Shown in pieces: positions 1,662 to 32,400 of a DNA stretch of 45,072 nt. The notes below the pieces were generated by a model. That model had not been told where the DNA came from, did no database searches, and was given only the letters and a program-made list of their open reading frames with translations. Source of the DNA: a virus; the IMG/VR virus record IMGVR_UViG_3300005830_000063, positions 1-45,072 of that record. The stretch is one strand, 5' to 3'. Numbering within the stretch: position 1 is the stretch's first letter; each line of letters begins with the position of its first letter. A program made the position numbers and the translations under genes.

Positions 1662-1668
1662 GCAAATG

Positions 1669-1685
1669 GGGGAGCTTTGCTCCCC
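1669..1685 (+). terminator. Hairpin after capsid gene (weak terminator or mRNA stabiliser)
   Basis: GGGGAGC (1669-1675) and GCTCCCC (1679-1685) form a perfect 7-bp stem with a TTT loop just after the capsid stop codon. Only two T residues follow it, so full intrinsic termination is doubtful. A hairpin here could set the step-down in transcript level after the capsid gene or protect its 3' end. The next gene starts 35 nt later with its own AGGGAGG site. Confidence 0.55.
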
Positions 1686-1720
1686 TTAACGAATATCTTT
1701 GACAAAGGGAGGTCATCACT

Positions 1721-2194: not shown

Positions 2195-2206
2195 GGGGGG
2201 TGACAC

Positions 2207-2332
2207 ATGGCCCTCAATCTTAGCAGGCTTGTAAGCGAGCAGATCAGCAATGCTATCAGCCAGGCCGCAAGTACCTCTATGAGCCTGGCAAAAAGCACAG
2301 TGGCCTCGCACGTTACGAGCTCGGCTCATTAA
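2207..2332 (+). CDS. 41-residue small protein
   Basis: A short frame starts at ATG 2207 with a purine-rich GGGGGG site 6-7 nt upstream. It encodes a 41-aa Ser- and Ala-rich, probably helical peptide beginning MALNLSRLV. Its TAA overlaps the ATG of the following glycosyltransferase gene (TAATG), which would couple their translation. No function is recognised. The ribosome binding site, the tight overlap and the absence of any other gene in the gap support it as real. Confidence 0.55.
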   Translation: MALNLSRLVSEQISNAISQAASTSMSLAKSTVASHVTSSAH

Positions 2333-3773: not shown

Positions 3774-3782
3774 GGAGGATGT

Positions 3783-11707: not shown

Positions 11708-12862
11708 ATGGCAACTGACAAGAAAGACATCAATGGCCCGGATTTTAATGCCTTAGGTAAAGCTATATGGAGCATACCTGATAACGCCATCAAAGCGATC
11801 GCCAATGCAACAGGGACCCCGTTACAGGTGCCTTCTCCTTCTTCCATAGAATCTGCCAATCCCATAACAAAAGGGCCGAGAAGCGTTTCCCCTCCTTCCC
11901 CTGCGGCAGTAGTGCCAAAAGTTCCGGCGATCGTACCGAGTGCGGAGGCGGCGGCATTGGCTACTAGCGTACCTAACAGCCTTGATACAATATCAGAAAG
12001 AAAAGCCGCATCAGGAATGACGTCACAGATCTTCAAGGATAATCCTCTTCTTTCTGGCGTAAACCTTAACCCTGCTCCGACGTCGGCCGGGACCATTACG
12101 GCAGATGGGAAAACCTATAACGTTCCCAAATCGTCACTGAGCAATGATGCCAACCTTGACATTATCAACCAGAACCGTGAAGCATCTGCAGGCCTTAATC
12201 CTGATATCATGGGAGCATTGAGGGCTTTCGGTGGGGATATTAACAAGGCTTCAAACTATCTTGCAACGAGAAGTCTGGAAGCAGAAAGAGCGTCAAGAGA
12301 TACCGGTCCCGATCTTATGACGAGATGGCAAGATGCAATCAAACAGGCCGGAATAGGAGCGACTACCGGGGGAATAAAATATGCTCGACAGGCCCAAAAC
12401 GCTATTGCTATACTTCAAGGGCTGATGCGTGAGGATACGGCAAACAGAGCTATAGATGCGAGAGAAAGAACTGATTTCGCCAATATAGATTCTAACGACG
12501 CTTATAGATCGGCTCAGCTTTCGGAATTGGCAAAGAAGGGGCCCCAAGTTGTCCAGGGCGAGGATAATATATATTCCTATAATCCAAAATCGGGGCAGTT
12601 TGAACCCACAGGCATAAAGCCGAGATCGAAAGAGTTTAAGCCTGATACCGTCCTTGACAATATCAAGAAGATATCAGATATCAGGAAAAACTATGCAGAA
12701 TCCGGTCAGGAACCGCCAAAGTGGCTTGCAGATCTCGAAACTCAGCTAACAGGCTCTACCAAGGGCAAAGAAGAAACACCGCCATTAGAGGGCGCAAGGC
12801 GCGCGCCCGATGGCAACTGGTACATACAGAGGAACGGGAAGACTTTTAAAGTGGAGAAATAG
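11708..12862 (+). CDS. Internal virion protein candidate, 384 aa
   Basis: The ATG at 11708 has a GAAGGAG site upstream; a GTG at 11693 is in frame but lies in the terminator tail. Residues 30-130 are rich in Pro, Ala and Ser and probably disordered. Residues 150-280 are helical and include PDIMGALRAFGGDINKA. The C-terminus carries GARRAPDGNWYIQRNG, a basic APDGNWY-type motif that I recall at the ends of several phage internal virion proteins. The next gene begins 1 nt after the stop. An ejected or internal virion role is inferred from this motif and from the polyvalent gene that follows. Confidence 0.6.
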   Translation: MATDKKDINGPDFNALGKAIWSIPDNAIKAIANATGTPLQVPSPSSIESANPITKGPRSVSPPSPAAVVPKVPAIVPSAEAAALATSVPNSLDTISERKAASGMTSQIFKDNPLLSGVNLNPAPTSAGTITADGKTYNVPKSSLSNDANLDIINQNREASAGLNPDIMGALRAFGGDINKASNYLATRSLEAERASRDTGPDLMTRWQDAIKQAGIGATTGGIKYARQAQNAIAILQGLMREDTANRAIDARERTDFANIDSNDAYRSAQLSELAKKGPQVVQGEDNIYSYNPKSGQFEPTGIKPRSKEFKPDTVLDNIKKISDIRKNYAESGQEPPKWLADLETQLTGSTKGKEETPPLEGARRAPDGNWYIQRNGKTFKVEK

Positions 12863-12863
12863 A

Positions 12864-15800
12864 TTGCCGAAACTCACGCCAGTTGACTATGATCCTTTTG
12901 CCGATGAGCAGAAGGGCAAGGCAGAGCCCAAGCTTACTCCGGTAGATTATGATCCTTTTGCAGAAAAACCCCAAGAAACGCCTTCGGCCATTCCTGGCCC
13001 TGATGCTTCTCTCGCTGATCGTGTCGTAAGCACCTTAAAGGCCGGAGGGAAGGGAGCATACCAAGGCCTTACTACAGAACTTCCGGGCATGGTCGGCAAA
13101 GCCATGGAGTTTATCGGCCGACCTTCAAATCCCCTAGATGGCGTCGGAGGAGCAATTCAGCTTCCCTTGCCCGGCATGCCGGCCGTTACAGCAGTCACAA
13201 AAGCTGTACCTTCAGTTGGAGATTTCATAGCCGAAAAAGGCAAGGAACTCAGCGGTTGGGCAGAAGAACGAGCAAAAAAAGAGCCGCTTGAACAGGCCGA
13301 TCTTTATACTCCTGAAGGGATGGTATATCAGGCAACCAAGATGCTCGCCCCTTCCCTTATACCGGGAGGGATAGCAACAAAGGCCGGAAAGATCGCTCTG
13401 GGCGTCAAGGGCCTCGCGGAAGCCGGGAAGGTAGCAGAGGCTACGGCGGCGGCCAAAAAGGCCGTAGATATCGGCTCAGCGGCCGCAGCGGGATTATTCG
13501 GACTATCTCAGGCTCAGCAAACAAAAGAAACGGCCGAAGAGGCCGGACAGCAACCAGGAATCACTCCATACCTTACAGGAGCCATAGAAGCACTCGGGGA
13601 ATTCCTCGGGACCAAATACTTCGCCAAGCTCCTTAAGCTCGATGAGGGCGGCATAACAAAGCCCGGAATGAAAGATTTCCTGAAAACCCTCGGCGTCGAG
13701 ATAGGTACGGAAATGGGCCAGAGTGGAGGCGAGGCGGCCGTAGAGAAGTATTCAGGCGTAAGACCGGGCGCAGATCCCATTAAAGAGGCCATTGACGTCA
13801 TAGGCCCCACAGCAATTATGACAGCCTTAACCGGAGGGCTCGGCCACATTGCAGGGCAAAAGCCTCAGGAGCAGGAAAAGGGTGCTCCTAAGGGCGAGCC
13901 TGGCACCACTGAAGGCAAAGAAATATCTCCGGCAGACATCAGAGTAAGGGAAGCTCTGGAAAAGGCCGCAGGCCGTCCATTGACAGATGAGGAATGGGGC
14001 AAGCTGACCGAGGCGGCAGCGGCAGAACAGAATCCGACAGAAATAGATGAGGCGGCGCACGAGGCCGCTACATCTCCACTTAACGATATCGAGCAACCTT
14101 CCGAGGCCCAGAAAAAGGCGGGCAATTACATTAAAGGGCACGCGACAATAGCAGGCCTCGATGTCACCATAGAAAATCCTCAGGGATCTATACGTTCCGG
14201 CGTATCTCCTGAAGGGCAGCCATGGCAGACAGAGATGCAATCACATTATGGCTATTTCAAGCGCAGTGAAGGAAAAGACGGTGATCAGGTAGATGCGTTT
14301 ATTAAACCCGGAACCCCTAAAAATTATGACGGTCCGGTATTCATCGTAAATCAGATAGACCCCAAAACAGGGAAATTTGACGAGCACAAGGTCATGGTAG
14401 GATTCGAGAGCCAGGCCGATGCAAACATAGCCTACCATGAGAATTACGAGCCCGGATGGAGGGGGATGAAAGATATCGTTCCCCTATCCATGGATGAGTT
14501 TAAGACATGGCTGAAAAGCGGAGAAACGAATAAACCTTTCGCTCCAAAGATACCGGCCGACCTGAAAGCCGATTTAAAGCCCTCTTCCGGGGAGAAAGTG
14601 CCTGATCATATAACGAGAGCCCTGCAGGAAGAAAGACCAGTGCCGCTCGCGGTATCGGTTAAAACAAAGCAGCTCACGAAAGATACCATCCAGGAACATA
14701 TTTCTTCCGGCGCGATCGCCGCGACGGCACCAATCAGGCTTACGACCGTTGACGAGATAAGAAGCATCATAAAGAACAACGGCCTTTCGGAAGGCAAAGA
14801 CTTCGAAGGCAAGGCCGGGATCTCGGCGCAGGTCGTTGAAGGCGGCAAGCCAGTTGTAGCATATGGAGCCAATGACAAAATAAGCGCGGCGATCGTCTTC
14901 CCGGAAAGCTCGATCGAGGGCAAAGGGCAGGCTCCGAATGAAGTAAAGATAAGCCAGAAAACGAATTTGGCAGATCTCCGATTCGTTGTCGATGGATACA
15001 GAGAGCTCATGACCGCAGAAGATCTCATGAAGATCATAGAGGGAGAGAAGGCGGCTCAAAAAGAAAGAAAGACATATCCCAAACAGGAAGCCATAAAAGC
15101 AAAGCAGAAAGAGGCGAAGCCTGCAGAAGAAGAAAAAATAAAAGTTATACACCATCCCATAACCGAGGACGAAAAACGGTTCGATACTCCCGAAGGCGAA
15201 GATAGACACGATTGGGAAAATAAGCAAGCGTTTAATAGGGCCAAGAAGCTCGGCTTTACCAAGATGGAGATAGATAGTGACGATTGGGCTAGATTCGAAC
15301 TTACTGATGATTTCGAAGTTGAAATACCCGGTAAAAAAGGTTGGGCCAGCTTCAATCATATCAATGTAGCAAAAGCTCCTAATGGTGAATGGGCCGCAGA
15401 TATTTCATATGTGCTCGGCAATCAAGGCGGTGGTGCATCACCTAGCATATGGAATACTGATTGGTATGCCGATCGAGATACGGCAATAAAAGCCGGGATA
15501 AAGAAGCTCAGGGCCGCTATTAAAGGCCGCATGAAAGACGATCTTTCCAAGACTGAAGAGGCCGATGCAAACAGGATTCTGAAGTATCTCGACGATCTGG
15601 AAAGCGGAAAGATAGAACCTACCCAGAGCGAAAGACAAAAAGAGCATAATGCTATACAGGCCAGGATAGATAAAATTGCCGAAAAGCTTCCTCCTGTCAA
15701 AAAAGGCACATATATGGCTGATATCCTCGGGGAAGAGGAAGAAAGCGAATTCAAGTATCATTATGAAATAGATGTCGATGGAAAGCCGGTATATGTCTTT

Positions 15801-17351
15801 ATAAAAACCGATGGCATAGTCGCAAGCATGGGCTCGATCCCTATGGAGCTGCACGTACCATCGAAAGACATAATTACGGAGACAGGATACAGAAGCGACC
15901 ATGTAAACATTGACGCATTAGAAGCTCCCGATGTCGAAAAAAGACTGAGGGCTTACCTTGAAGATCAGGCCGATAAAACTAAGCTTCCCAAGAAAAAGAA
16001 ATTCCCCAAACAGGAAGCACTGAAAGAAAAGCAGAAATCTAAGGCCAAACAAAAAGATATCAAACCTGGGACCGTAGGCATGATGTTGGAAGAGGGAGAA
16101 GTTGTAACTACCGTAACAGGCAGGGAAACTACACCATTCCCTTCTCTTAAATTTGGCAAGGGAACAAAAAGGACTTTGGCCCTTGTAGATAGATGGCTCG
16201 TTGATAATGCAGAAGCCGAGGCAGAATCAAGGGGTGATGAATTTAACCTGCTTCAGTTTAGGAATATGAACAGGAAGAATTTAAGCCCTGCAGATAAAGA
16301 CAGCGCGGAGATGTATCTTTTTGACAAGGAGGCCAAAGATGATAGTACCCGCAGGAAAGGACAGCCAGGGGAGACCGTTGTTCCGAGTGAAGAGCCACAG
16401 CGGAAAGAACCTGTCAAAGCCCATGCCGAGGAAGCAGGCGGAGCTAAGGCTGAAACAGGTAGAGATGTTCAAGCACATGAAAAAGTAGAGGGCCCCGTAG
16501 CGAATGAAAATGAAGTATATGAGAAAGATGATCCCCGAAATGAGAAATTCATGGAGGTCGTTGAGTATAGGACAAAGAAATACAAGGCCAAGATAACACT
16601 GCTTCATATTCCGGGAGAGGGATGGATTAGCGCTCTTGATCAGGGCCACTTGCAGGGCACCTATTCAGGAGGCGGTAGCCCTCTCATGAAAGGTGATGAA
16701 GCATTTTTAACCAGGGAGGAAGCCCTTGCCGAAGACCTGAATCGCTTGATAACGATACAATCTAGTTTCCTTTCCGGGCCTCAACCTAGCAATGCGACTG
16801 AAAATCAGATCAAAGAGGCGAAGAAGGCAGTAGAATGGGCCAAGGCTGAACTGAACAAGATTGGAAAGAAGGAAGGCCCGAATGAAGAGGAAACGCAGGA
16901 CGAGGCAGGAGGCTTCAAGGTTGGTGATTCCGTAACTGCGGTAAGTGTATTTTCTGGCGGCCTTATTGGGACGATTAAAGAAATTACCGATCATCCCGAA
17001 TTCGGCCTAAGGGCAAAGATAGAATGGGAGAAAAAGCCTGGATTTCATGCAAGCGAATCAGTATTACCGTTAGACAGATTGACGAAGGAGGCGAAGACTG
17101 ATGAAGTGCCCGAAGTGCGGAGCGAGGATGTTGGGGAACAAGTGCAAACGTTGCGGGAAGAGGGTATAGAGGGGAAACAAACAGAGATAAATATCGACGA
17201 GATCCCGGCCGACTTGATTGTGGAAGTTACGGCTATAAGGGAAAAAACAGGCAAGACCGTAAAGGTCAAGGAAAGTGCTCGGCGTGCGATCGCCGATCTA
17301 AATGCCAGTATTGAGCAATATAAAAAGCTTTTGGAGTGTCTAAAATCATGA
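12864..17351 (+). CDS. Polyvalent virion protein, 1495 aa, pyrophosphatase-like domain
   Basis: The frame extends upstream to 12810, but the TTG at 12864 has a GGAG site and follows the previous stop, so it is the chosen start. Residues 2-13 and 22-33 are tandem PKLTPVDYDPFA motifs. Residues 60-330 are Ala/Gly-rich helices, possibly amphipathic or membrane-interacting. Residues 418-554 match the pyrophosphatase-like domain described in phage and conjugative-element polyvalent proteins: GNYIKGHATIAGLDV, ENPQGS, HYGYFK, DGDQVDAFI, DEHKVMVGF. Further globular segments follow (about 583-728, 783-891 and 965-1020). A KOW/SH3-like segment (FKVGDSVTAVSVFSGG) lies near 1352-1402. Two small genes are nested in its linkers in the +1 frame. 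The protein is probably packaged and ejected with DNA. Confidence 0.8.
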   Translation: MPKLTPVDYDPFADEQKGKAEPKLTPVDYDPFAEKPQETPSAIPGPDASLADRVVSTLKAGGKGAYQGLTTELPGMVGKAMEFIGRPSNPLDGVGGAIQLPLPGMPAVTAVTKAVPSVGDFIAEKGKELSGWAEERAKKEPLEQADLYTPEGMVYQATKMLAPSLIPGGIATKAGKIALGVKGLAEAGKVAEATAAAKKAVDIGSAAAAGLFGLSQAQQTKETAEEAGQQPGITPYLTGAIEALGEFLGTKYFAKLLKLDEGGITKPGMKDFLKTLGVEIGTEMGQSGGEAAVEKYSGVRPGADPIKEAIDVIGPTAIMTALTGGLGHIAGQKPQEQEKGAPKGEPGTTEGKEISPADIRVREALEKAAGRPLTDEEWGKLTEAAAAEQNPTEIDEAAHEAATSPLNDIEQPSEAQKKAGNYIKGHATIAGLDVTIENPQGSIRSGVSPEGQPWQTEMQSHYGYFKRSEGKDGDQVDAFIKPGTPKNYDGPVFIVNQIDPKTGKFDEHKVMVGFESQADANIAYHENYEPGWRGMKDIVPLSMDEFKTWLKSGETNKPFAPKIPADLKADLKPSSGEKVPDHITRALQEERPVPLAVSVKTKQLTKDTIQEHISSGAIAATAPIRLTTVDEIRSIIKNNGLSEGKDFEGKAGISAQVVEGGKPVVAYGANDKISAAIVFPESSIEGKGQAPNEVKISQKTNLADLRFVVDGYRELMTAEDLMKIIEGEKAAQKERKTYPKQEAIKAKQKEAKPAEEEKIKVIHHPITEDEKRFDTPEGEDRHDWENKQAFNRAKKLGFTKMEIDSDDWARFELTDDFEVEIPGKKGWASFNHINVAKAPNGEWAADISYVLGNQGGGASPSIWNTDWYADRDTAIKAGIKKLRAAIKGRMKDDLSKTEEADANRILKYLDDLESGKIEPTQSERQKEHNAIQARIDKIAEKLPPVKKGTYMADILGEEEESEFKYHYEIDVDGKPVYVFIKTDGIVASMGSIPMELHVPSKDIITETGYRSDHVNIDALEAPDVEKRLRAYLEDQADKTKLPKKKKFPKQEALKEKQKSKAKQKDIKPGTVGMMLEEGEVVTTVTGRETTPFPSLKFGKGTKRTLALVDRWLVDNAEAEAESRGDEFNLLQFRNMNRKNLSPADKDSAEMYLFDKEAKDDSTRRKGQPGETVVPSEEPQRKEPVKAHAEEAGGAKAETGRDVQAHEKVEGPVANENEVYEKDDPRNEKFMEVVEYRTKKYKAKITLLHIPGEGWISALDQGHLQGTYSGGGSPLMKGDEAFLTREEALAEDLNRLITIQSSFLSGPQPSNATENQIKEAKKAVEWAKAELNKIGKKEGPNEEETQDEAGGFKVGDSVTAVSVFSGGLIGTIKEITDHPEFGLRAKIEWEKKPGFHASESVLPLDRLTKEAKTDEVPEVRSEDVGEQVQTLREEGIEGKQTEINIDEIPADLIVEVTAIREKTGKTVKVKESARRAIADLNASIEQYKKLLECLKS
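12867..12962 (+). repeat. Tandem coding repeat PKLTPVDYDPFA x2
   Basis: The segments 12867-12902 and 12927-12962 encode the same 12 residues with several synonymous differences, separated by eight codons. Conservation of the peptide rather than the bases suggests selection on the motif. Short VDYDPFA-like motifs at N-termini of polyvalent proteins are plausible packaging or docking signals (inference). Confidence 0.75.
16339..16488 (+). CDS. Nested gene A: 49-aa basic protein in +1 frame
   Basis: AAGGAGG (16326-16332) stands 6 nt before ATG 16339, and the frame runs 49 codons to TAG 16486-16488, wholly inside the 1495-aa gene in its +1 frame. The product is strongly basic and looks folded: GRPLFRVKSHSGKNLSKP, then a helix with RKQAELRLKQVEMFKHM. 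I recall small phage proteins with the same V-K-S-x(2)-G-x(2)-L-S-K core followed by an A-E-x-R-L-x-Q-V-E helix. The overlapping host segment (residues 1159-1209) is low-complexity, rich in E, A, G, K and P. Near-optimal initiation signals plus a family-like product argue for a real overlapping gene. Confidence 0.65.
   Translation: MIVPAGKDSQGRPLFRVKSHSGKNLSKPMPRKQAELRLKQVEMFKHMKK
17101..17169 (+). CDS. Nested gene B: 22-aa zinc-ribbon peptide in +1 frame
   Basis: AAGGAGG (17085-17091) lies 9 nt before ATG 17101, and the frame ends at TAG 17167-17169. The 22-residue product has four cysteines at positions 3, 6, 15 and 18 (MKCPKCG, then CKRCGK), a textbook minimal zinc ribbon or knuckle. It is in the +1 frame of the 1495-aa gene, whose own product there (residues 1413-1436) is an acidic linker. 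It is shorter than normal gene-calling cut-offs. The full CxxC-x8-CxxC pattern with a good ribosome binding site makes chance unlikely but not excluded. Confidence 0.55.
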   Translation: MKCPKCGARMLGNKCKRCGKRV

Positions 17352-17755
17352 AGAAAATTAAAGAAGAAGACATACCAGAACTCCTAAGGGATAAAAAAGT
17401 AAGCGAAAAAGATATTATCGATTCCGCGAAAGAAGATTCCGAGGACTTGTTGCCAGAAGAGCGCCAAGTGCAACTACTGGAAGATATTAAAGAAGGCATA
17501 ACGTCACTCGGGATAAGCTTAGACAATAAAAATACTGATCTCATAACTACGATCAGCGATAACCAAAAAGAAATGTTGTCTGTTATCAAGAAGATGGAAG
17601 AGGTAATAATCGAACTCGTAAAAGACAAGAAAAGGGCAATAAAGATCGAACCACGAAATGAACAATGGGAATTCACGCCGATCCGCGATCTGACAGGGAG
17701 GATTGATAAGATCATAGGCAAGAGCTCAGCCGGGAAAAAAATTACCATACATTAG
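17348..17755 (+). CDS. Hypothetical acidic helical protein, 135 aa
   Basis: ATG 17348 overlaps the stop of the polyvalent gene; an in-frame GTG at 17336 is an alternative. GGAG lies upstream at 17333-17336. The 135-aa product is highly charged and mostly helical, with a coiled-coil-like middle (KEMLSVIKKMEEVIIELVKD) and a basic C-terminus (DLTGRIDKIIGKSS). No catalytic motif or membrane segment is visible. It belongs to the ejection/tail operon by spacing. The function is unknown; a chaperone for a virion protein is possible. Confidence 0.6.
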   Translation: MKKIKEEDIPELLRDKKVSEKDIIDSAKEDSEDLLPEERQVQLLEDIKEGITSLGISLDNKNTDLITTISDNQKEMLSVIKKMEEVIIELVKDKKRAIKIEPRNEQWEFTPIRDLTGRIDKIIGKSSAGKKITIH

Positions 17756-17763
17756 GATAAAAC

Positions 17764-17931
17764 ATGAATTATAAAGGGAAAGAATACGCTTTAGTTACGG
17801 TGATAGGAAAGGTTAAATATTACAGAAGCACCGAGAGCTATGCCGGGAGAGGATTGTCAGATGAAATAGAACTCGGCTCAAATGGTAAAATCACGAAAGT
17901 TAAAATAAAAGATAAGGTGAAGATAAAGTAA
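17764..17931 (+). CDS. Hypothetical 55-aa basic protein
   Basis: ATG 17764 follows an AGGA site and the frame runs 55 codons to the TAA that directly abuts the ATG of the tail appendage gene. The product is lysine-rich and beta-patterned (YALVTVIGKVKYY, then KITKVKIKDKVKIK), probably a small beta-barrel or hairpin protein. It fills the gap between two genes exactly, which supports it being real. No family is recognised. Confidence 0.6.
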   Translation: MNYKGKEYALVTVIGKVKYYRSTESYAGRGLSDEIELGSNGKITKVKIKDKVKIK

Positions 17932-20900
17932 ATGGCGACTTATTCTTCTGACGTTACAGACCCTACCCCGTTATCCGCTGGAGAAACCGTAGCTGTCGAT
18001 AGCAACGCTACGGTGATAATTACCGGTGGGGCATGGGGAGCGGCTGGCGCGGGTTCGATAACTGTAACCTATGGCAGACTTATCTTGCGCAACACCTCGA
18101 CTTCGGCTGGATGGGTTTTGACTTGCACACCGTCAGGCGTAGGAGCTTTCACTGTCCAAGACCAAGGCATTTTAGAGATAGACGGAGACTGGATTTCCAT
18201 TGGGACAGGCACGGGTTCAGCTTCGTTGACACTGAATGGAGCACTGACCAGTTCCGCGACTTCGGTGGTGGTAAATGAAGACATTTCAGCTTTGTCAGCT
18301 GATGGACAACTTTTGATAGATTCTGAGTATATGTATTATTCATCGAAAAACAATGGAACTAAGACCTTTACGGTGGTTAGAGGCAAAGGCGGGACGAAAG
18401 CGGTAGCTCACTTGAACGCTGCGGCAGTCAAAGCGTCCAACGCCGACCAGACCGCTACACACTGGGAATCGACCATTAACGATTATTGCCCCGCCATCTG
18501 GGTGGAAACGGCCGCTGGCAGCGGAGTATATGAAAGATTTTTAAATTTGGCAGGTGGTTACGCTACCAACAATCTGGCGTGGGCGAATGTGGGTTCAGGA
18601 AAATACGGAAAGTTTTTTACGCAATCTGGAGCAACGCTTACTTTTGGCGATGGTTCGACAGGAAAATGTCCGCCTCCGGGGGCCAATATCCGTGTTCCGA
18701 ACATCATCCTACGGAGCGGAAACACGAAAAGTGCCACGGGTCTTAGCATAGCCGGAACAGGCAAACGTATTTTCGACACCGGTACATTGATAGATATCTA
18801 TACTTCCGATTCTTTCGCTAAATCCGCCTATTCACACGTAGCTTTCGGGTTGCCGGTAACTACTGTTTCCGGCATCGACCAACTTGACTTTATCGACTGT
18901 GCTTGGGGCAACTGGTCCGGAGAGGGAGCGAACAGCGGGTGCGGGTCTTATACAAGCGTTAAAGTTTTAAATATGACAGACTGTTCAGTCTATAATAAAC
19001 CAGCCAGCTCTTCCCAATATGCCATTAACCTGAATGGCAATGTCATTTTCACCGCAGATAATTGCGAGTTTATTTGCATGCTCACTGCCTCCAATAATAA
19101 CAATGTCGGATTTTATTCAGGCGCTACCAGCAATGAACTCTATATGACTGACTGCTTGTGCGTGGGGGCTGGTTCATATTACGGACGATATATCAAGATC
19201 ATCGACCATGAGATAGCCGAAAATGTCCTTTTGAATGATACCAACACCGGAAGCTCTAAACGAGCCATGGCGTTTTCTGGTATGACTGATGGAGTTATCA
19301 ACGGTCTTTACCAACCGGCAGGCGGTAGTTTCCCCGGCACCAACGGTGCAGCCTTATATTTCCTGTCCGGGATCACCCTAAAAATTTATAATGTCGATAT
19401 ATCTGCGACGGAAAATACCTATGTAGCGTCGTATGCTTCCAGCGGCTATTTCGTCAATATGAACTTTAGAAATTGGCAGGTGCAGGGCTATAAGACCAAC
19501 CTGTTCCAGCAGGGTTCTTCCGTGCAACATTACGGGCAACTGATGTCTGATATCATCTGCTATGAAACAGGTGCAGGGACAACGCTCGCAGCGTTCAAAT
19601 TTTCTAACTCGCCCATCATGAGAAAAATTACCTGTTCCAGTCTTCCTGTTACTACGGCTCTGACCGTCTATGATTCCCCAATGTGGTATATTTTGGACGA
19701 TACCACGGGCGGCACGCTGTCTATAAACCCCGTGGCAGTCTCGGTCAATAATCCCAATGTTACCATTAGCGGTTCGGTAAAGTTCGCCCCGTCCTATGGT
19801 CGGGTATATATGCCTGTTGAAGCTGACGAGGTGGAATATGTCTTTCCCTACCTGATTTACGGCATATCCTCGATGGACACCGCAGCTTATACGGTCGCTA
19901 ACAGCGTTATTTGTGAATATGCGATAGACACGGGCGGGGGATATGGCTCATGGAAAGAACTCACGACCGGAAATGTTTCCGGGGAATCGGTAGATGAAGA
20001 AACTGGCTTTTATCTTAAAATCAGATTTAGGGCTACGGCTTCAAATACGGGCAATTATTACACCGTTGCCAATATTGCCTGCACAACGGTCAAAACGGTC
20101 ATGTACCCCGTGCAGACGGTCACACTTCAACTCGAAAATGTAGTCACCGGCAGTCAATACTGGATAAAGAAAAACAGCACGGGAGAGATTCTTGCTAACG
20201 GTACGGCAGCGGCCTCAACCGTGAATATCCCTGATATAAATTATGCTGCAGATTTCGGAATAACAATCAGGGTAAGAAAAGCAGGTTACGAGCCGTTTGA
20301 AACAGGGGGAACCGTAACAAGTGGGGGCATCTCTTCATGGATTTCCCAGGTAGCAGATACCGCAAAGGGAACGGCAGCGGCCTCGGGGGTGAGCTATAAC
20401 TATTCGACCAAGGAGATTGCTGTCACATCAGCGAACACCGTGAATGAGGTTTACTCTCATATCATGGAAACATTCGATGATGCTGCCCAAATGGATGATA
20501 CCATTCCCATGAGAGCCGATACGCCGACACAATACACGCTTCTTAATTCATGGGTATTTACTTCTTCATCTATTCAGTATCTCTCGGGAGGGGCACTGCA
20601 GGATGATGCAGGAAACAACATCTGGACGAGAGTTAAGACCTTAGGCAGCATCGTTGCAGGGACCACGCTTTATATAGAACAGGATGGGGCGGTCGTATGG
20701 ACGGCAGGGTCTACAGGCCATATCGATATGCTTCTCCAGACAAAAAGCGGTGGTTCGGAGATCGATGGCCAGAACTTTACCGTTTATGCGAGATTGTTCC
20801 AACAAACATATGACAGCAATTCAGCAACAGGAGGTTTCTTTACAGCGTATCTCGCCCTTGCTACCCAAGCCGATCCGGAACTGACGATAGCTTCTGCTGT

Positions 20901-23271
20901 CCTCGATGCTTATACCGGAGTATCTATAGAGTGGGGTTCTTTCCTCGAAGATATAGGGGATGGCGATGGAGACAAACCCTATTCGATCTTTATTGAGTGC
21001 AATAATTACACGCTTGCTCAGATCTATAACTGGCTGCAATATCAATTATTGTCGGCATCTGACATCGATGCAGGAGCAGGGACGCACATTGGCAAGATAA
21101 CTGCCGAGTTTGGTTCTTATAAAGGCGGGACATTTATCGGCGCTATTGGAGTATGGCTGAATAATGTCGCCACTGCAGATATTAATAATTATATTGTCCA
21201 CGACGATAATGGAGACCCGCATGAGGCTCCTGTACCTCCAACAAGCATAGCCGTCAACAATATCGTTTCCGGGTCCACGGTCTATATGTACGATGTGACG
21301 AATACGACGGAACTTTGTAATGAAGTCGTTGTCGGGACATCGAAGAGCGTTGTTTATGCAGGAGGATCCGGCAATACCATCATAATCAGGGTCAGGCATA
21401 AGGATTATGTGCCATGGAAAACTACGGGCGTTACAACTACTTTGGGCATGTCGGCTACTGCCGATCAGGTTCTTGATGGAACGATATCTTCTTATACTGC
21501 ATCTATCGCTACCGATTACGATGTTGATACCGGGACAAAGATCATTACCCATGTAACTGGCAGCACGGTCTACACAGTTCGAGAATTCCATTCCTGGCTG
21601 AATGATTTATTTGCCGGCACAGGGTATATGGAGTTCGATTATGCTTCCGTTGCCTTTACGAAATACAATATTCAGCTTGTCAACGCCTATTACTTCTCGG
21701 ATGATGCGGATACGCAATATCTCAAAACAGGTTCGGTGATATGTCATGATGGCGACCGACTCTATGGCTCGGTAATCACGATAGGAACAATCGGGGCGCA
21801 GGATATCTATATTGTTCAGAATTCAACAAAACTCACATCTTTCTGGGGTTCTGGCCCTATTGACGTTCTTATCAAGGTTAAGGATTCAGGCGTATTGATC
21901 GATTCCGGCAAGCTGAGTATCTTTACGCGCGATTGGGGAGAGCAATTCGACCATACCATAGTCACCATTACCGAGGGAGGGAAGAACTACGCCGCAATTT
22001 CTACCGGGACCGATGCCAATAACGATACAGCATTAGGCACAGTGGCGACATATTCAGACATTACGCTCACGGAAGGCACGGCGAATAAGCAGATCGACGC
22101 GGCAGACTCGGCGGCAGATTACGATGTTGTCATTGACTGTAATGGCAGAACGCTGAAGGAAGTCTATGAATACCTGAAATATGTCACCAGGGCAGGCTCG
22201 ACCTTTACGATTCTCTCCGATAATGGAGAGGAATATTATGCCATGGACCCCGGCTATGCCGAGACAAAGAACGGGCCTTTTGGTTCTTTCGCGGGAGGTA
22301 AATTCTTCGGAGCGCAGGGAGTATGGATAGAAAACATGGCTCTTGCAGACCGTATGAATTATGAGCTGATCGACAGCGCAGGGGTAACGCATATGCCAAC
22401 GGTGGTAACGGCGTATATCGCGGTCTCGAATATTGTGGATGGTTCGAGAATCCAGCTTTATGATATTACCGCCGATGCTGAATTAGCTAATGAGATCGTA
22501 TCGGGAACATCATTCAATTTCGGATATACCTATTGGGGCAGTGATCATGATATCCGGGTAAGGCTCACAATGGTTTCAGGGGCCTCGACAGCCTATAAGT
22601 GGTATGAATCTCAGGGCACTGCCACAATTAACGGCATGAGCCTCAGAGCGAGCCAGGAAGCCAATACGATATATACAACAAATAATGTAGACGGCTCAAC
22701 GGTTACGGAATGTTCGGTATCGGGAACCACGATCAGGATTTATGTGGACGATCCGGATAACACCACGACAGCGCAAAGGATTTATAACTGGTATCAGTAC
22801 ATGCTCTTTACCGAGGACGGCATACGGGACCAGGACGGAGCTTATGTGATCGGCAATGATTCGACGCATTATACCCTTGATAACAGCATGAAAATAATCA
22901 ATCAGGATACGCTGAATCCTCTCAACATTACAGGAGCCAATATTGTTCCGCAATCGGGACCGGCAACGAATATTTTTGATTTGAGCAATGGGGCTTCGAT
23001 GTGCCTCAACTTCAACCGCGTTGAAGGCTTTGCCTATTCCTCCGGCTCGGGATTATCTACAGAAGAACATAATACCCTGCTTGCTATTGATAACGTTGTC
23101 GATGCCATGAGCGGCAAAGTAATAGACATTCACGATACAAGCATCGGGAAATGGGTGCTCGATCGCGTTGCCCTTACCTTGACCCATTACCGTGCCGATG
23201 GCGTAACTGTTCTTAAAACCTTCAATCTTACTGAAGAAGAAGGCGTATATGTAGCGAGAATCCCGGCATGA
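17932..23271 (+). CDS. Large modular tail appendage protein (beta-helix plus repeats)
   Basis: This 1779-aa protein has an N-terminal half (about residues 30-720) with the Asn/Ser/Thr/Gly-rich short-strand pattern of a right-handed beta-helix, as in tailspikes and pectate-lyase-like domains. From about 725 it has at least two to three long repeats of 375-390 residues. Each opens with a strand motif such as ENVVTGSQYWI (731), NNIVSGSTVYMYD (1105) or SNIVDGSRIQLYD (1496). Each contains a YNWLQY-like helix, and two contain GxxGGxFxGAxGVW. The C-terminus has THYRADGVTVLKTF, a short module I recall at the ends of phage appendage proteins. It is likely a receptor-binding or surface-degrading fibre. 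Catalytic residues cannot be assigned. Confidence 0.7.
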   Translation: MATYSSDVTDPTPLSAGETVAVDSNATVIITGGAWGAAGAGSITVTYGRLILRNTSTSAGWVLTCTPSGVGAFTVQDQGILEIDGDWISIGTGTGSASLTLNGALTSSATSVVVNEDISALSADGQLLIDSEYMYYSSKNNGTKTFTVVRGKGGTKAVAHLNAAAVKASNADQTATHWESTINDYCPAIWVETAAGSGVYERFLNLAGGYATNNLAWANVGSGKYGKFFTQSGATLTFGDGSTGKCPPPGANIRVPNIILRSGNTKSATGLSIAGTGKRIFDTGTLIDIYTSDSFAKSAYSHVAFGLPVTTVSGIDQLDFIDCAWGNWSGEGANSGCGSYTSVKVLNMTDCSVYNKPASSSQYAINLNGNVIFTADNCEFICMLTASNNNNVGFYSGATSNELYMTDCLCVGAGSYYGRYIKIIDHEIAENVLLNDTNTGSSKRAMAFSGMTDGVINGLYQPAGGSFPGTNGAALYFLSGITLKIYNVDISATENTYVASYASSGYFVNMNFRNWQVQGYKTNLFQQGSSVQHYGQLMSDIICYETGAGTTLAAFKFSNSPIMRKITCSSLPVTTALTVYDSPMWYILDDTTGGTLSINPVAVSVNNPNVTISGSVKFAPSYGRVYMPVEADEVEYVFPYLIYGISSMDTAAYTVANSVICEYAIDTGGGYGSWKELTTGNVSGESVDEETGFYLKIRFRATASNTGNYYTVANIACTTVKTVMYPVQTVTLQLENVVTGSQYWIKKNSTGEILANGTAAASTVNIPDINYAADFGITIRVRKAGYEPFETGGTVTSGGISSWISQVADTAKGTAAASGVSYNYSTKEIAVTSANTVNEVYSHIMETFDDAAQMDDTIPMRADTPTQYTLLNSWVFTSSSIQYLSGGALQDDAGNNIWTRVKTLGSIVAGTTLYIEQDGAVVWTAGSTGHIDMLLQTKSGGSEIDGQNFTVYARLFQQTYDSNSATGGFFTAYLALATQADPELTIASAVLDAYTGVSIEWGSFLEDIGDGDGDKPYSIFIECNNYTLAQIYNWLQYQLLSASDIDAGAGTHIGKITAEFGSYKGGTFIGAIGVWLNNVATADINNYIVHDDNGDPHEAPVPPTSIAVNNIVSGSTVYMYDVTNTTELCNEVVVGTSKSVVYAGGSGNTIIIRVRHKDYVPWKTTGVTTTLGMSATADQVLDGTISSYTASIATDYDVDTGTKIITHVTGSTVYTVREFHSWLNDLFAGTGYMEFDYASVAFTKYNIQLVNAYYFSDDADTQYLKTGSVICHDGDRLYGSVITIGTIGAQDIYIVQNSTKLTSFWGSGPIDVLIKVKDSGVLIDSGKLSIFTRDWGEQFDHTIVTITEGGKNYAAISTGTDANNDTALGTVATYSDITLTEGTANKQIDAADSAADYDVVIDCNGRTLKEVYEYLKYVTRAGSTFTILSDNGEEYYAMDPGYAETKNGPFGSFAGGKFFGAQGVWIENMALADRMNYELIDSAGVTHMPTVVTAYIAVSNIVDGSRIQLYDITADAELANEIVSGTSFNFGYTYWGSDHDIRVRLTMVSGASTAYKWYESQGTATINGMSLRASQEANTIYTTNNVDGSTVTECSVSGTTIRIYVDDPDNTTTAQRIYNWYQYMLFTEDGIRDQDGAYVIGNDSTHYTLDNSMKIINQDTLNPLNITGANIVPQSGPATNIFDLSNGASMCLNFNRVEGFAYSSGSGLSTEEHNTLLAIDNVVDAMSGKVIDIHDTSIGKWVLDRVALTLTHYRADGVTVLKTFNLTEEEGVYVARIPA

Positions 23272-23498
23272 TCATTACTCAGGGATACGGTGCCAAAACA
23301 GTAATAACGAGCGGTTATGGCAGTTATGTCCCTTCAATTATCGTTCCTCCACCGGCAGAAAGCAAAATTCCAAGTGGAGGATCTTACATCCCAGACGGCG
23401 TTATTCATCCAACAAAGCCTAAAATAAAAAGGCCGTATATTGACGACGACGAAGTTTTTGAGATTTTAGCAAAGATATTCGTGGAGGTAATTTCATGA
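23268..23498 (+). CDS. Hypothetical 76-aa proline-rich protein
   Basis: The gene begins in an ATGA overlap with the appendage gene and ends in an ATGA overlap with the giant polyvalent gene, so it bridges the two. The 76-aa product starts with Gly/Tyr-rich turns (ITSGYGSYVPSIIVPPP), has a Pro-rich middle, and ends with an acidic helix (DDDEVFEILAKIFVEV). It may be an attachment or trimerisation accessory for the fibre or a small virion protein. No family is recognised. Confidence 0.6.
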   Translation: MIITQGYGAKTVITSGYGSYVPSIIVPPPAESKIPSGGSYIPDGVIHPTKPKIKRPYIDDDEVFEILAKIFVEVIS

Positions 23499-26400
23499 GC
23501 TCATTAGCGAACTGCTTAAAAATACATAATATATCTCCTGCTGAGGCAAAGCTTATTCGCCAGAAAGCAAAGGATTACAAAAGAGAGAAATTCAGTGCCA
23601 AGGAAGCCAACGAGGGCGCAGTACAGGACGTTATCAATCAGTTTATCCAGGAGAGAGAAAACATAATCCGGCAGATCGAGGCGGCGAAGAAAGGAGGCAA
23701 AGAAAATGCCAAAGTGCAAGAAACCCAAAAAACCGTAACCGAAGTAACTCCATTCACAAGGGGATACATTGTCAAGGATCGGCTATCCGGCCGCATCGGT
23801 GTTGTTGTCCGTCCGACATATCCGGGGCGAGTGGAGGTAATTTTCAATGACGGCCGGCGAGATGAGTTTGGGCAGGTTCAGCTTATAAAAACTGAAGAAT
23901 TCGCCGTCAGCGATCAGGCTATAGATCTGCAAAAATTTGTCCTGAGCAAAGAGCCAGGCCAGCTCCCCCATGAAAAGCTGAAGTCTTTAAAAGCAGGAGA
24001 TACCTTCTCACATGGATTACATACCTATAAGATTACGGACATTTACGAGGATGGTTCAGTCAAAGCGCTCGATATAACCAACAAGAAGAAGCCTATCGAA
24101 AGAGTATTCCATGATTTCGAGAAAGAAACCCATCTCAAGCTAGACACTTCAGAAGCGAAGAAGCCGGAGGAATATGGCACCAAAAATACCGTGTTCACAA
24201 AGGAGAGGGCAGACGCGGCCAGGGAGAGATTACGCAAGAAGCTCAACCGGGTATATATGGGCCTCGATCCAGAGATTGTCAGGGATGGCATTGAAATAGC
24301 CGGATTCCATATTGAGGCAGGGGCCAGGAAGTTTAAGGATTATTCCCTTAAGATGATTGAGGATTTCGGGGAGGCTATCAGGCCTTACCTGAGGTCGTTT
24401 TACATGGCAGTAAGAAATTATCCCTCCTTTGATAACGAGGGAATGAATACCGAGGCCGAACTGGATTTGATCGAGAAGCAGGCAGAAAAGGGCGAGGAAA
24501 CAAAGCCGTATTTTATTTACCAGAAAGAAACACGGAATTTTATGGAGGTGGACGGCAAAAAGATAACGTTCGAAGGCTTTGAAACCAATGATCTTTTTAT
24601 CTACCACCATCCTAAGGATACGATCGATAATTGGGCTATCTACGAGGGCCATTCTGGAATAAAAGTCTCTGGCGGCCGCACGAGGAAGGAAGCCATTGAA
24701 AATACACGCAAGTTATTGGAAAAGAACAAAGATAGAATCGAAGAAGCTATTAACAGGGCAATAGAAAGTACCGGAAGATCTCCGAGGTATGCAGGTGTTG
24801 ACTTCGGGGAGCAAAGTGCTAAAATAAAGCCAGAAGGAGTTATTGATGAAAGCTTGGGTACAGCAGGCAATCAACCACTGGAAGGAGTTTCAGCCGAAGA
24901 GGTACGAGGAACTTCAGAAGGCGGGCCAACTACAGCAGGAGGCGGAGAGCGCGGCAGAGCTGACCGAGAAGGCACTGGAAGAACTGATGTCGCAGGGAGC
25001 GACGTTCTCGGAGGCGTGGGAGCAGGTGAGAGAGTTATACCTATTCCCGAAGGAAGAGCCGAACTTGGAGACGTCAGAGAAACAGGACGACCTGAGCGCA
25101 CACAAGATAATAAGCTCGGAAATGCAGAGCCTTCAGGAAGCACTGAACGAAGCGGATTAACCCCCACTCCCGGAGAAATAACCCCGAAGCAAAACTACAC
25201 GATCACCGATGCCGATAATCTAGGCAAAGGGTCTCAAGCACAGAAATTCGCTGACAACGTAGCGGCTATCAAGCTGATCAAGAAACTTCAGGAAGAGGGC
25301 AGGCAGGCCACGCCTGAAGAGCAGGCCGTCCTTGTTCGATATGTAGGGTGGGGCGGTATCAAAACTGCCTTCCCAGACGAAACCGGGAAATTCAATAAAG
25401 GATGGGAAAAGAAGGGTCAACTACTTAAAGATCTGCTCAGCAAAGAAGAATGGGACGCTGCATATAGCACCATTCTTGACGCCCACTACACATCACAAGC
25501 TGTAATTAACTCCATGTACGAGATTGTAGACCGGCTCGGTTTCAAGGGCGGCAATGTCTTGGAGCCATCTATGGGCACCGGTAATTTCTTTGGCCTCATG
25601 CCTCTTAGCATGAGAAACGATTCGGCCCTTACCGGAGTGGAATTCGACAATATTACCGGAGCCATAGCGAAACAACTATACCCGAATACGCATATCATGG
25701 CTCCAATGGGATTTGAGGATGCAAGATTCGCTGATAATTTCTTTGATCTCACAATAGGAAATCCACCATTCGGCAACAGGCCGATACCGTATGGTACGAG
25801 TAAACACCTAAAGGGATTCACCATCCATAATTATTTCTTTGCGAAATCATTGGATAAACTGCGCCCTGGCGGTATTCAGGCAATGGTAGTTTCGAGATGG
25901 TTTCTTGATAAAAAAGACGCATCACAAAGAGAATACCTGGCCCATCGAGCTAACTTCATCGGGGCGATCCGGCTACCGAATACGGCCTTTCAGGAAAATG
26001 CACTCACAGAAGTAACCACGGATATTGTTATTTTCCAGAAACTTCCCGAAGAGGCATATGGCAGTGCAGATAAATCATGGACGAAGACCGGGATGGTACA
26101 GGACCCACTCGGCGGCGAGGACATAGAGATCAGCCAGTATTTCATAGATAATCCCGTGATGATGCTCGGCCGCATGGAGCGCAGCGGGAAAATGGTAACT
26201 GGCATGGAGCCCACTCTTGCATACATAGACGGTTCAGATATCAACGCCATGATGCAGGACGCCATTAATCAGCTTCCCCAGAATATATACGGAGAGACCG
26301 GGACCGTATTGCCAACCTATGAGCTTACAAGGGAAAGTGTCGAGCCTGCGCCGGAAGGCTACAACATTGGGTCTTATATCGTAGAGGACGGCAAGTTAAA

Positions 26401-29400
26401 GCATATCGAAGAATCTCCGGACGGCTCGCAAGTATCCGTAGAACTAACTCCGGAGACGCAATGGACAGAAAAACAAAAACTCGGGCAAGGAAGATATGAA
26501 AGGCTGATGAAGCTCGCTGAATTGCGCGATTCTGTACGAAAACTTCTTCGTCATGAAGTCCAGGACGATGCTAAATCCGTCATGGAGGAGGAACGGGAAA
26601 AGCTCAATAAGCTTTATGACGAATTTGTAAAGGAGCATGGATATCTCAACAATACCGCCAATGCCTCTCTTTTCCATGACGATCCTGATAGCCCTCTTCT
26701 TCTCGCTTTAGAAAACAATTATGAGAGGGGTATCAGCAAGACAGTGGCGGCAAAGCTCGGTATCAAACCTGAAAAGCCGACAGCCAGTAAGGCAACGATA
26801 TTCAAGAAAAGGGTTATTTCTCCATATGTTCCAGTAAACAGCGCTGATACGGCCGAAGACGCCTTGATGATCACGTTATCTCAGCTTGGAGAGGTAAACA
26901 TCACTCACATGGCAAACCTTACCGGCAAGGAAAATAGCGAGATAATAAAGGAACTTCACGATGATCTTGAAAACCCGATCATCTTCCTGAATCCTGAAAC
27001 CGATACCTGGGAGCAGGCTTCGAAATATCTGAGCGGCAATGTCAAAAAGAAAGAGAAGATCGCGCGTGAGAAGGGCCTGATAAAAAACGCTGAAGCTTTG
27101 AGGGCCGTATTCCCTCCTGATATAAAAGCCTCGGATCTATCCGTTAAGCTCGGGGCGTCCTGGGTCAACGAAAAGACATATGAGGATTTCGCTAAATACC
27201 TGTTCGGAGATGAGGCCGACGTAGTAGCAAAATATATAGCTACAGACGGCAGAATTATCATCGACATAAGGGGAGGCAATGAAGGCAAATTACGCAAATA
27301 CAGCACGCCGCGCATAGATGGGCCAACCCTTCTTAAGAAAATCCTCGGATCAGCGAACATCGCAGTGTATGACGTCCTCGATGATGGTTCACGGCAGATC
27401 AATAAAGATGCAACGGTAGCGGCCATTGCAAAGGCAGATGAGATCCGGCAGGAATTCGAAGATTGGATATTCAGTGAAGCCGGGAGAAGAGATTCACTGC
27501 TCCAATTCTATAACGATAACTTTAATACTGATGTCGAGCCTAAATACGATGGTGAACACTTACTGCTACCCGGCAAGGTGCCTGATGCCACTATTCAGCT
27601 ACGCAGACACCAGAAAAACGCTATATGGAGAATCATTCAGGATCAGAAAGCATTACTCGACCATGTAGTAGGTGCAGGCAAGACCTATACCATGGTAGCA
27701 GCAAGCATGGAAATGAAGCGCATGGGAATTGTAAGGAAGCCCATGATAGTAGTCCCTAACCATCTGGTAACTCAATGGGCGAAGGATTTCTATACCTTGT
27801 ATCCGGGAGCAAAGATCCTCGCCATGAAAAAGAAGGATTTCGAAAAGAGAAACCGGAGAACTATGCTTTCCAGAATCGCTACAGGAGATTGGGATTCCGT
27901 CATTGTAGCACATTCCAGTTTTGGCTTTATCAACGTAGATAAAGAGTGGGAAGCATCATTTATCAAGAAACAAATCGACGATCTGATGGAGGCTGCCAGA
28001 ATCACCAGAGAGACGGAGGGGAAGAGAAGCCGGAGGGCGAGCGAATATCAGAAGGCGGTCGAGCGCCTTCAGGCAAAACTAAAGGCCCTGCTTGATAAGC
28101 CGATCGACAATATTCTTACCTTTGAAGAGCTCGGCGTCGATCATCTGTTTGTAGATGAAAGCCACGAATTTAAGAATCTTTTCTTTACAACGGCAAAGCG
28201 CATGCTCGGCCTCGGCAACCCCATGGGAAGCCAGAAGGCAATGAATCTGTATATGAAAGCCCAATGGTTACAGCAGAAGCACTCTGGCAAGGGAGTGGTA
28301 TTTGCAACCGGCACTCCGGTCAGCAATAGCCTCAGCGAGCTTTATACGATCCAACGCTATCTCGGGCTGCAGGATCTTGAAAACAGAAACATAAAGTCAT
28401 TCGATGCATGGCTGAACAACTTCGGGCTAGAGCAGAGCGATTACGAATTGGACAGCACGGGAGTAAAGTTAAAGGCCGTGAATCGCCTCAGAAGCCTTAC
28501 CAATATCCCTGAAATTATGTCGCTTTATAAGCAATATGCTGACGGAGTGACAAACGATGATATCAAAAAGGCCTACAAAGAACAGACCGGCAAGGAATTT
28601 CCCATACCCGGTATCAAGGGCGGCCAGAGACAGAATGTTGTCGTAGATCGCTCAGATGATCAGGCCGCATATTTCGCAGATATAGTACAAAGGGCAGACG
28701 CCGTAGAGAAAAAAGATGTAGAGCCAGAAGAAGATAATATGCTGAAGATCACCACTGATGCTCGAAAAGCGGCCCTTGATATCAGGCTCGTAGATCCAGG
28801 AGCAAGCGATCATCCCGGCAGCAAGACTCACGTAGCCGCTGACAGGATAAGGGATATTTGGGAAAAATGGTCGGCAGACAAAGGGACGCAGCTTGTTTTT
28901 CTCGATCTGTCAATCCCTCTCAGCGCATCAAAGAGAGAACAGGCCAGTATCATAGATCTTATCAACAAAGCAGACGCGGGAGATGAAGAGGCTCAGCTTG
29001 CCCTTGATAAGCTAAATCCTGATGATCTTGTTGCCGCAGAATCAGCAAAAAGCGGATTCAGTGTATATGACGACCTGAGATCAAAGCTTATTGATCGTGG
29101 AATTCCTGCAGGGGAGATAGCTTTCATCCATGACTACAATACGGACAATAAGAAGCAGGATCTTTACGATATGGTCAACGCCGGGAAGATAAGGGTGCTT
29201 CTCGGGAGCACTTCCAAATTGGGCGCAGGGACGAACGTTCAAAAGAAGTTGGTAGCGGAGCATCACCTTGACTGTCCTTGGAGGCCTTCCGACATTGAGC
29301 AGAGAGAAGGAAGGATTATTCGCCAGGGCAATGAGTTAGTTGAAAAATATGGTGTCGGTAAATTCGATGTCGAGATTCATGCGTATGCTACAGAACAGAC

Positions 29401-32400
29401 TTATGACGCTCGTATGTGGCAGGTTCAGGAGCAAAAACTGATTGCTATAGGAGCATTGCGGAGCTATAAGGGAGAAAGAGAGATTGAAGAAGTAGCCGCG
29501 GCTGCCGCGACCGCCGCAGAGATGAAGGCCGCTTCAACCGGGAATCCTCTCATTCTTGAGGAAGTTAAGTTAAAGGATTCAATCAGAAAGCTCGAAATAA
29601 AGCAGAAGTCTCATAAGAGGCAGATATGGGACGCTGAAAGCGATATCAAGAAATTCGAACGGGCCCTCGAGGTCTTCCCTGAAGAGGTGAAGGATCTGGA
29701 AGTGGACGCCGAAAAAGTACGCAAGTATAAAGATAATCCATATGGCGAAGACAGGCCTTCCGTCAAAATACAAGGCAAAGAATACACAGATAGACAGGAG
29801 GCCTTAAAGGCGGCCAACGATGAAAAACTACGGCAAATCGGAGGCAAGGATGTAGAAACCCTTGTCAGAGAAACTCTCGTATTGAACATAGACGGAGAAG
29901 ACTATAAAGGCTTCGATACGATCAAGCAGTATATCGTCGATCATATTTCAGAAGGCTTCAATGTTTTGGTCGATGGAAAGAAAAAGCATGTATCAACAAA
30001 GGATAGAGCAGAGAGCATAGTTTCTGACGCCATGGATGTAAGAGAAAAAGAGGTAATGAAATCTCTTCCGAAGTTTTCTATCGATATCAATGGCACGCCA
30101 GCGACAAGCTCAACTGCAATAACGAAAGCCATACATGACGCCTTTGGTGACATGGACCCTTTTGCTATGGAGATCGGAGGCAAAGCCTACATAAAGAGAT
30201 CTGATGCCGGAAAGGCCGCCCAGGACATGATCGACGATCAGTTGCCAACGGTAAAGGGAGATATGCTGTCAAATTATCGTGTTGGTACTTTTGCAGGCAT
30301 GGAAGTCTTCATAGACGCCTTGAATCATCCAAAAGAATCACATGGGAGGATGTACGAATTCGAGGTATCGATAAAACTCAGGGGGAAGTCTACCCAAATA
30401 GATTCCGGCATTGTAAGCAATACGCCGGGAATGGAGATATCCAGAGTAGAGAGATTGGCTAAGCATATTATTTGGGAACTGAGCACGAAGAAAGCGACCT
30501 TGAAATCAGCCAAAGAGCAAATGCCTGTTCTACAACAGATTTTATCTAAGACATGGCCGCAGCAGCAGGAGCTTGACGAAAAGAAGGCGAGGCTCGCTGA
30601 GGTACAAAAAATACTTTCCGAGAAGCCGAAAAAGCAGGAAGAAGAGGGCGGTGAAGCACCTGCGCTATCCCTATCCGAAGATGAAGACCTGAAGGCCTTC
30701 GCGCAATCCATAGAGGCGAAAAATGCTTTCGGATCGGCAATGAATCCGGAAACTTCTGACGATTACCTGGCCCTTCTGAAGAAAGACTATATGACGCTTT
30801 CAGACCGGGAGAAATTCATTGTAGACAATCTGATGAGCCCGGAATACAGTCTTGGAGACAGAAAAGCCGCAGGCCTCGACATGGGAGAAGTTAAGGCCTC
30901 GATCGTTGATCTTCAGAAGGAATGGAAGAATGGTCCGGATATCCGCGTGGTTCAATCCCAAGCGCAATTACCGGATCGCCTGCAGAAATACATATCTTCC
31001 TCAAAGGGCAAGGGAGCCGTGGAGGGGATATTCGATCCCAACACCAAAGGTATTTATCTTGTAGCTGACAACCTTAGATCGATCGGGAGAGCTCATGTTG
31101 TTCTATTTCATGAGGCAGTAGGGCATTACGGCCTTAGGGGTATCCTGGGCGGTGATATCGCTCCTATCTTGAATCAGGCCTACATAGCGAAGAAGAAGGA
31201 AGCCGATCAGATAGCCAAAAAGTACGGCCTCGATGTCAGCACTCAGGAGGGAAAGCAGCGCGCTGCCGAGGAAGTGCTTGCTCGTATGGCAGAGAAAAAT
31301 GAAAAGTCACCGTTCCTTCAGAAAGTCTATGCAGCGATAAGAAACTGGCTCAGGAAAATAGGCTTTAATATCAACCTGTCAGACAACGATCTAAGGGTAA
31401 TGGTATCCCAGGCTCGCCAGTTTATCGAGGAAGGCAAGAAACCCTTGAATCTTAGCGGCCTAGCCGCCATGAGCAGGAGAGAGGCAAGGGGAGGTTTCTA
31501 CTCTCAGCTTTATAAGGTACTCGACAATAAGTTGCCTGATCAGGTTACTCCTACACTGTTCAATAAGGTGATCGGCCAGCATCGTGAAGGCATACTCGGC
31601 ATAAAGCCGGAAGAGATAGCAGACACCAAGGCAACCGTCTCAGCGATCTTCGGGGATAAGAAGATCCTGCCGAAACAAGAGATATTGGATTATCTGAGAG
31701 CATCGGACAGGACCGATGTTCAGGATGTTGTTTTGGGAGGCGATTCTAAATATAAGAAATTATTGGATAAATTTTCCAGAAAAGTTAGTAAGAGACTAGG
31801 CCGCCAAGGATGGACATTTGAAGATCTAACAGAGGAAGAATATAAAGAGTATTACGAAATTTATAAGCGAAAAGATGTGTCTTATTACACTACTCTTATA
31901 GCTGAAACAAAAGCAGAGAAAGATAAGGTACTGGAAGATTTTAAGGAGGCAGAAAATGTTTTTGATAGGATTTCCGAAAACTTAAAAAAAGGTATCCCAG
32001 TAGGTTCGTCAAATAAGAAATTTTATGATGACTATTTTAAGAATGGGAATCCGTTTGAAGCTGAACTATATAGATTATATGACAAGATAAAGATGCTGGA
32101 AGAGGAAAAGGAAAGGTCAGCAATTCAAGGAACGCATTTCTCGGAATATAGCATACCTGGATATATAACTGATAGTTATAGAGAACAATTTGTAACGGCG
32201 AAGAAAATATCCGGAGAAAAATTAAAAGATAATCCGGAGCAAAACTGGAAAGACGGCCATTCGGCATATTCAAATATCGAGAATCCGATTGTGCGAATAC
32301 GCTACAACGATCGAACGGATGCTGATGGCAACATCATAAGATTTATAGAAGAACTTCAGGGGCCAAACCCTGAAAACGAAAAGAAGATGCCAGAAATATA

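Follow-up and report, generated by a model that had tools for sequence, protein, structure and literature searches.

We found that two giant genes of a phage each enclose, in another reading frame, a small gene that is almost certainly real and was missed by annotation, because relatives of both small genes hold the same hidden place in many phages and mobile elements. Taken as a whole, the explanation that both are genuine overprinted genes with their own predicted starts, and that they belong to small folded families which became enclosed, is very probable from the sequence comparisons reported here. The window, by which we mean the whole stretch of 45,072 nucleotides analysed, is a 45-kb tailed-phage fragment marked by a major head protein (phrog_1357; window 672-1661) and a RecT-like annealing protein (phrog_148; window 43225-44265). 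Host gene 1 (12810..17351, + strand) is an ORF for a polyvalent protein of 1513 aa that contains an inorganic pyrophosphatase (InPase) domain, residues 432-569 matching Pfam InPase with an E of 3e-53. Host gene 2 (23495..35929, + strand) is an ORF for a 4144-aa DarB-like methylase-helicase polyvalent protein, matching PHROG 10089 (DarB-like antirestriction) with 2001 bits and carrying the methylase-SNF2 helicase dyad of DarB-like polyvalent proteins, an SNF2-related domain being present. A scan of viral contigs returned no close relative of the window's host methylase segment.

Both small genes are complete ORFs lying wholly inside the larger one, in the +1 frame relative to the host, and each has its own initiation signal. 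Nested gene A (16339..16488, + strand) encodes 49 aa from an ATG that follows the Shine-Dalgarno (SD) sequence AAGGAGG (16326..16332, + strand; anti-SD duplex −11.4 kcal/mol); it lies within a low-complexity segment of host gene 1 and is supported by its translation and by nested relatives in other viral contigs. AlphaFold2 with alignments models its product as a small beta-beta-alpha protein (mean pLDDT 92.2), for which we found no Pfam family at E values up to 0.1. The top Foldseek matches of the model have the UPF0339/DUF1508 (YegP-like) fold (3bid, 2k7i, 2k49), with an E of 0.12 at best and a TM of about 0.4, so that neither Pfam nor Foldseek gave a significant sequence or fold match to UPF0339/DUF1508 and a relationship is not demonstrated. 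Nested gene B (24846..25160, + strand) encodes 104 aa, also from an ATG, behind the SD AGAAGGAG (24832..24839, + strand; anti-SD duplex −8.3 kcal/mol), and is supported by its translation, by nested relatives and by a phase test. It lies just upstream of the methylase of host gene 2, and its trace in the host frame (24845..25159, + strand) is a low-complexity linker ahead of that methylase. The AlphaFold2 model with alignments has four helices, with a pLDDT of about 90-97 over residues 1-70 and a low-confidence tail. A fold search of the PDB with this model gave no match, while a search of BFVD gave one strong match, which, judged by length and identity, we take to be the in-frame protein of phage PBC5 described below.

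The earlier note had proposed three such SD-preceded, ATG-started +1 genes in low-complexity host segments, two of them in one host gene. This arrangement stands for 16339-16488 and 24846-25160, one per host, and falls for the third, which was left unnamed and whose best candidate, 24174-24299 (+ strand, 41 aa), is not conserved. We rejected that candidate as a nested gene; it sits over a conserved host domain (residues 218-324 of host gene 2, matching phrog_938) and not over a linker, and of the 37 loci that have this domain, counting the window, just 7 keep the candidate frame open.

We next consider whether such frames could be open by chance, since A/G-rich linker codons rarely give +1 stops and would produce long +1 ORFs with SD-like purine runs without any selection. 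When the host codons of this genome were shuffled with the protein held fixed, 29% of the shuffles of host gene 1 contained an SD-ATG +1 ORF of 49 aa or more, and 4.8% of those of host gene 2 contained one of 104 aa or more. The excess over codon-shuffled controls by which the earlier note would have judged the nested genes is thus absent for the 49-aa ORF and borderline for the 104-aa ORF in what is a weak test, and the 24174 ORF behaves as chance would have it. Single-genome shuffles cannot alone establish nested genes, and the case for A and B therefore rests on other genomes: the nested ORFs hardly exceed chance within this genome alone and clearly exceed it across genomes. Against a chance origin stand protein families conserved in the same frame over many genera, a match to a curated Pfam family, the substitution pattern of the nested frame, the enrichment of SDs over control ATGs and confident predicted folds. 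We consider chance exceedingly improbable for A and B, and on sequence grounds it is already refuted by conservation across genomes.

Upon searching phage records by tblastn with gene B, 21 records were matched. The gene annotated as DarB-like contains the match, shifted by +1 relative to its own frame, in Pavtok, PEp14, POI1126, LASTA, SopranoGao, Stean, VvAW1, Mwe-JY07 and Atu_ph08, and none of the DarB-like phage records examined annotates the small gene at this locus. A further 90 family B loci came from scanning viral and genome contigs. Across 102 loci, 94 are nested +1 in the same relation (some are copies of one phage, the non-redundant number being 54-56), two are in frame, both from the single phage PBC5, and six are of other kinds. 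The phages concerned are those of Erwinia, Klebsiella, Agrobacterium, Ochrobactrum, Vibrio and Microcystis. The nested loci have ten upstream contexts and nearly all have the methylase region downstream, with a GWGG-type methylase motif in the host frame at 90 of 93 loci, a median of 78 aa away; at one locus of the nested class, L029, the host frame spans just 245 codons. In the record of phage Itty13 (NC_070969, L004), gp01-gp03 are annotated on the strand opposite the long DarB-like open frame, and the annotation appears inverted there.

Of the six remaining family B loci, five are solo or decayed copies and the sixth encodes a free-standing protein of 262 aa in Pseudidiomarina (L093), so that free-standing members beyond decayed copies are rare. 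In L093 (3980-4768) the gene-B-like domain is fused to a hydrophobic, membrane-like segment, and the neighbours are an HTH gene and a gene for a McrB-like AAA ATPase, a possible defence-island context. In the bacterial contigs L086, L087, L089 and L090 the small ORF is mostly intact and the host frame around it is decayed, which could reflect chance survival or retention for its own use. We found no gene B relatives in a plasmid search, and phylum- and order-wide genome samples held no further copies (1/398 and 1/149, seed genomes only).

Next, we investigated the starts of family B. Of the 101 loci scored, 95 begin with ATG, in a scoring that asked for an SD and is partly circular; when starts were chosen blind to the SD, a strong SD preceded 46 of 56, compared with 17.7% of control ATGs, namely the other +1-frame ATGs of the same genes (p-value 2e-16). 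These starts bear on programmed frameshifting, by which ribosomes would slip from the host into the nested frame and yield the N-terminal part of the host with the small domain as its C-terminus. SD-like sequences can stimulate ribosomal frameshifting, and in PBC5 (L010 / L013) the upstream ORF runs in frame into the gene-B domain and ends there, an arrangement that phrog_938 and the BFVD entry apparently mirror as a fused PBC5-type protein. Compared with its kin, PBC5 apparently has one frame change, which may be genuine or due to a sequencing error. Its DarB-like gene is annotated as two parts, gp22 and gp21, and the gap between them is unannotated. We regard frameshifting as quite improbable, however, given that SD and ATG are kept at a spacing of 6-9 nt in most family B loci and that similar starts are used by free-standing relatives. 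Furthermore, a shift site would have little space, because the nested frame is closed by a stop 1-2 codons before the start codon at 13 of the 93 loci and no more than 12 codons before it at 33.

Besides their predicted starts, the small genes show constraint on what they encode. Across 24 non-overlapping family B pairs, substitutions in the overlap fall on host codon positions 1/2/3 in the numbers 576/306/304, equal to 306/304/576 at nested positions, whereas downstream host codons in the same test give 547/325/2238 (overlap versus downstream, chi-square p-value 1e-166). Nested position 3 changes fastest, and the wobble position of the overlap is thus that of the nested frame. Over the same codons, mean amino-acid identity among the 54 non-redundant loci is 43% in the nested and 30% in the host frame, nested identity being the higher in 1421 of 1431 pairs. 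Phase-specific rates and identities alike show that purifying selection acts on the nested frame. Of the two coding layers it is this one that is more tightly constrained, and the host frame is kept open under weaker constraint.

That the host frame is kept open also bears on whether the long host frame is one protein at all, or whether two genes flank the small one and agree in frame by accident or through sequencing error. One Bacillota record, discussed below, lists a small ORF of this kind without the 1678-codon frame that surrounds it, its gene table being incomplete, and at the decayed loci L086, L087, L089 and L090 the small ORF has persisted, the host frame being lost. A split host is nevertheless very improbable: for a host frame to be free of stops, given the nested B protein and the codon usage of the host, the median chance is 1.1% per locus (0/1000 for the window). 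Yet 94 loci have it uninterrupted through the overlap, and stops occur in the corresponding frame of free-standing relatives. In addition, a DarB-like protein was detected in the virions of a Bcep22-like phage as the product of a single giant gene (PMC9144972).

Upon examining the relationship of gene B to known families, we observed that the window protein scores 14.4 bits against Pfam TnpV (PF14198), below the gathering cut-off of 27 bits, that the best of 11 family members reaches an E of 1.8e-4, and that hhalign gives a weak match (E 0.001, probability 21%). When DarB-like methylase records that had no gene-B match were searched, TnpV-like ORFs with SD and ATG were found nested +1 in long methylase-helicase-type frames of gut elements, which are probably of Bacillota. 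Four of the nested ORFs lie in records with the DarB-like methylase. The four nested ORFs that were scanned match Pfam TnpV over nearly its full length with 87 to 142 bits (E 1e-24 to 9e-42), above the gathering score of 27 bits. Roughly ten of the classified TnpV-type loci are nested and roughly eight are free-standing. Divergent nested ORFs occur at the same place in BcepMigl (SD AAGGAGGT) and USP_25, the BcepMigl match being weak (E 0.06). In a plasmid record (L201, 3989-4342), the TnpV protein is annotated and the enclosing 1678-codon frame omitted, the mirror image of the phage annotations. A role of TnpV in excision has been postulated from its similarity to lambda Xis (PMC3158075). TnpV, known from Tn4451-like transposons and related elements, and gene B are both small and helical and have a weak common core, although TnpV also occurs free-standing near recombinases. 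Gene B is, on these sequence scores, a probable, not a proven, remote relative of TnpV.

Family A was found in three states, nested at 14 loci (window included), free-standing at about seven and fused in frame at about nine. Around the nested copies we distinguished about nine host contexts upstream and ten downstream, which have no detectable homology to one another, and in several host pairs the block around the nested gene is the main or sole shared stretch near that position. Terminase and connector genes surround the free-standing copies of L114, L140 and L153, and that of L151 is near structural genes; free-standing copies carry 1-4 stops in the host-equivalent frame. In L153, directly upstream of the gene-A relative, the gene for the terminase large subunit (1441-3873) has a LAGLIDADG-type insertion, a probable intein. 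In L154 the free-standing copy begins 5 bases past the end of a 1638-aa ORF with weak similarity to ART-PolyVal, a polyvalent domain; L154 and L152 have the domain in common and not the junction, hence they do not form a clean before-and-after pair. Strong SDs precede the copies of the window, L143 and L147 (GC 0.47-0.64), whereas several AT-rich copies have A-rich leaders instead. Where nested copies are AT-rich, a host frame free of stops would be expected, given the nested protein, with a chance near zero. Substitutions at nested positions 1/2/3 number 54/26/128, counted over all pairs among five related contigs and thus not independent.

Free-standing homologs thus exist for the 49-aa family and for TnpV, where the earlier note had allowed that there might be none. 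Its view of the linkers as by-products of the small genes is upheld by the fast nested third position, the higher nested identity and the stops in free-standing relatives, and these stops make that the best reading of the low-complexity linkers. Its suggestion of a single common origin is not supported, since families A and B are unrelated and have different folds; their shared arrangement would be convergence. Each nested gene is a member of a small folded-protein family that also exists outside the overlap. Small genes of a late, polyvalent or mobile-element neighbourhood may have been enclosed as flanking long frames joined across them in another frame, and the host frame running through the small gene, under weaker constraint, would then read as a repetitive linker of disordered appearance that joins folded domains. 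Most likely, enclosure of this kind recurred, and did so in two families that are unrelated. The step itself may have been growth of the host frame through a neighbouring gene or insertion of the small gene. We infer this enclosure of existing small genes by frame joining from the comparison of loci, and both products would come from one mRNA, with the small protein made in cis with its giant host.

With respect to function, the most plausible role of gene B, by analogy, would be that of a dedicated partner of the DarB-like methylase-helicase, such as a folding, packaging or ejection adaptor. DarB of P1 works with the partners DarA, Hdf, DdrA, DdrB and Ulx (PMC12810830), and podoviruses with related proteins appear to have no such small partners: in the virions of a Bcep22-like phage the DarB-like protein is a single giant product and homologs of the P1 partners are stated to be absent (PMC9144972). 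This contrast between the small Dar proteins of P1 and their stated absence beside a virion DarB is the ground for the partner idea, and a nested ORF occurs where it would be expected in BcepMigl, which is of the Bcep22-like group. P1 DarB and host gene 2 are both DarB-like, and the small gene is closely tied to host gene 2; Ulx of P1, in contrast to nested gene B, is a separate gene after darB, and a six-frame search of the first 16 kb of P1 gave no gene B relative. More speculatively, and rather doubtfully, dual-coding linkers, whose second frame stays free of stops, may be joints of giant ejected proteins and, through their conserved DNA, seams for domain exchange, with the small products serving as packaging or ejection partners.

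Rz1 within Rz is a fully nested phage gene. Overlapping genes are also known in phage Fc02 (PMC9936078). In these systems, as with genes A and B, a small gene lies in another frame of a larger gene and the overlap is functional, but unlike them genes A and B have relatives outside the overlap and occupy linkers, and family A recurs in non-homologous hosts. We found no earlier report of these nested genes in the open-access literature, and their novelty is provisional. The two protein families stayed hidden because annotation usually reports one of two overlapping frames. Their recognition offers an explanation for the puzzling low-complexity linkers of polyvalent proteins, ties the orphan transposon family TnpV to phage DarB-like genes, and supplies candidates for missing antirestriction partners. 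Overall, it would provide a system in which overlap arises by enclosing existing genes and not by the birth of new ones, and in which free-standing, fused and nested states can be compared.
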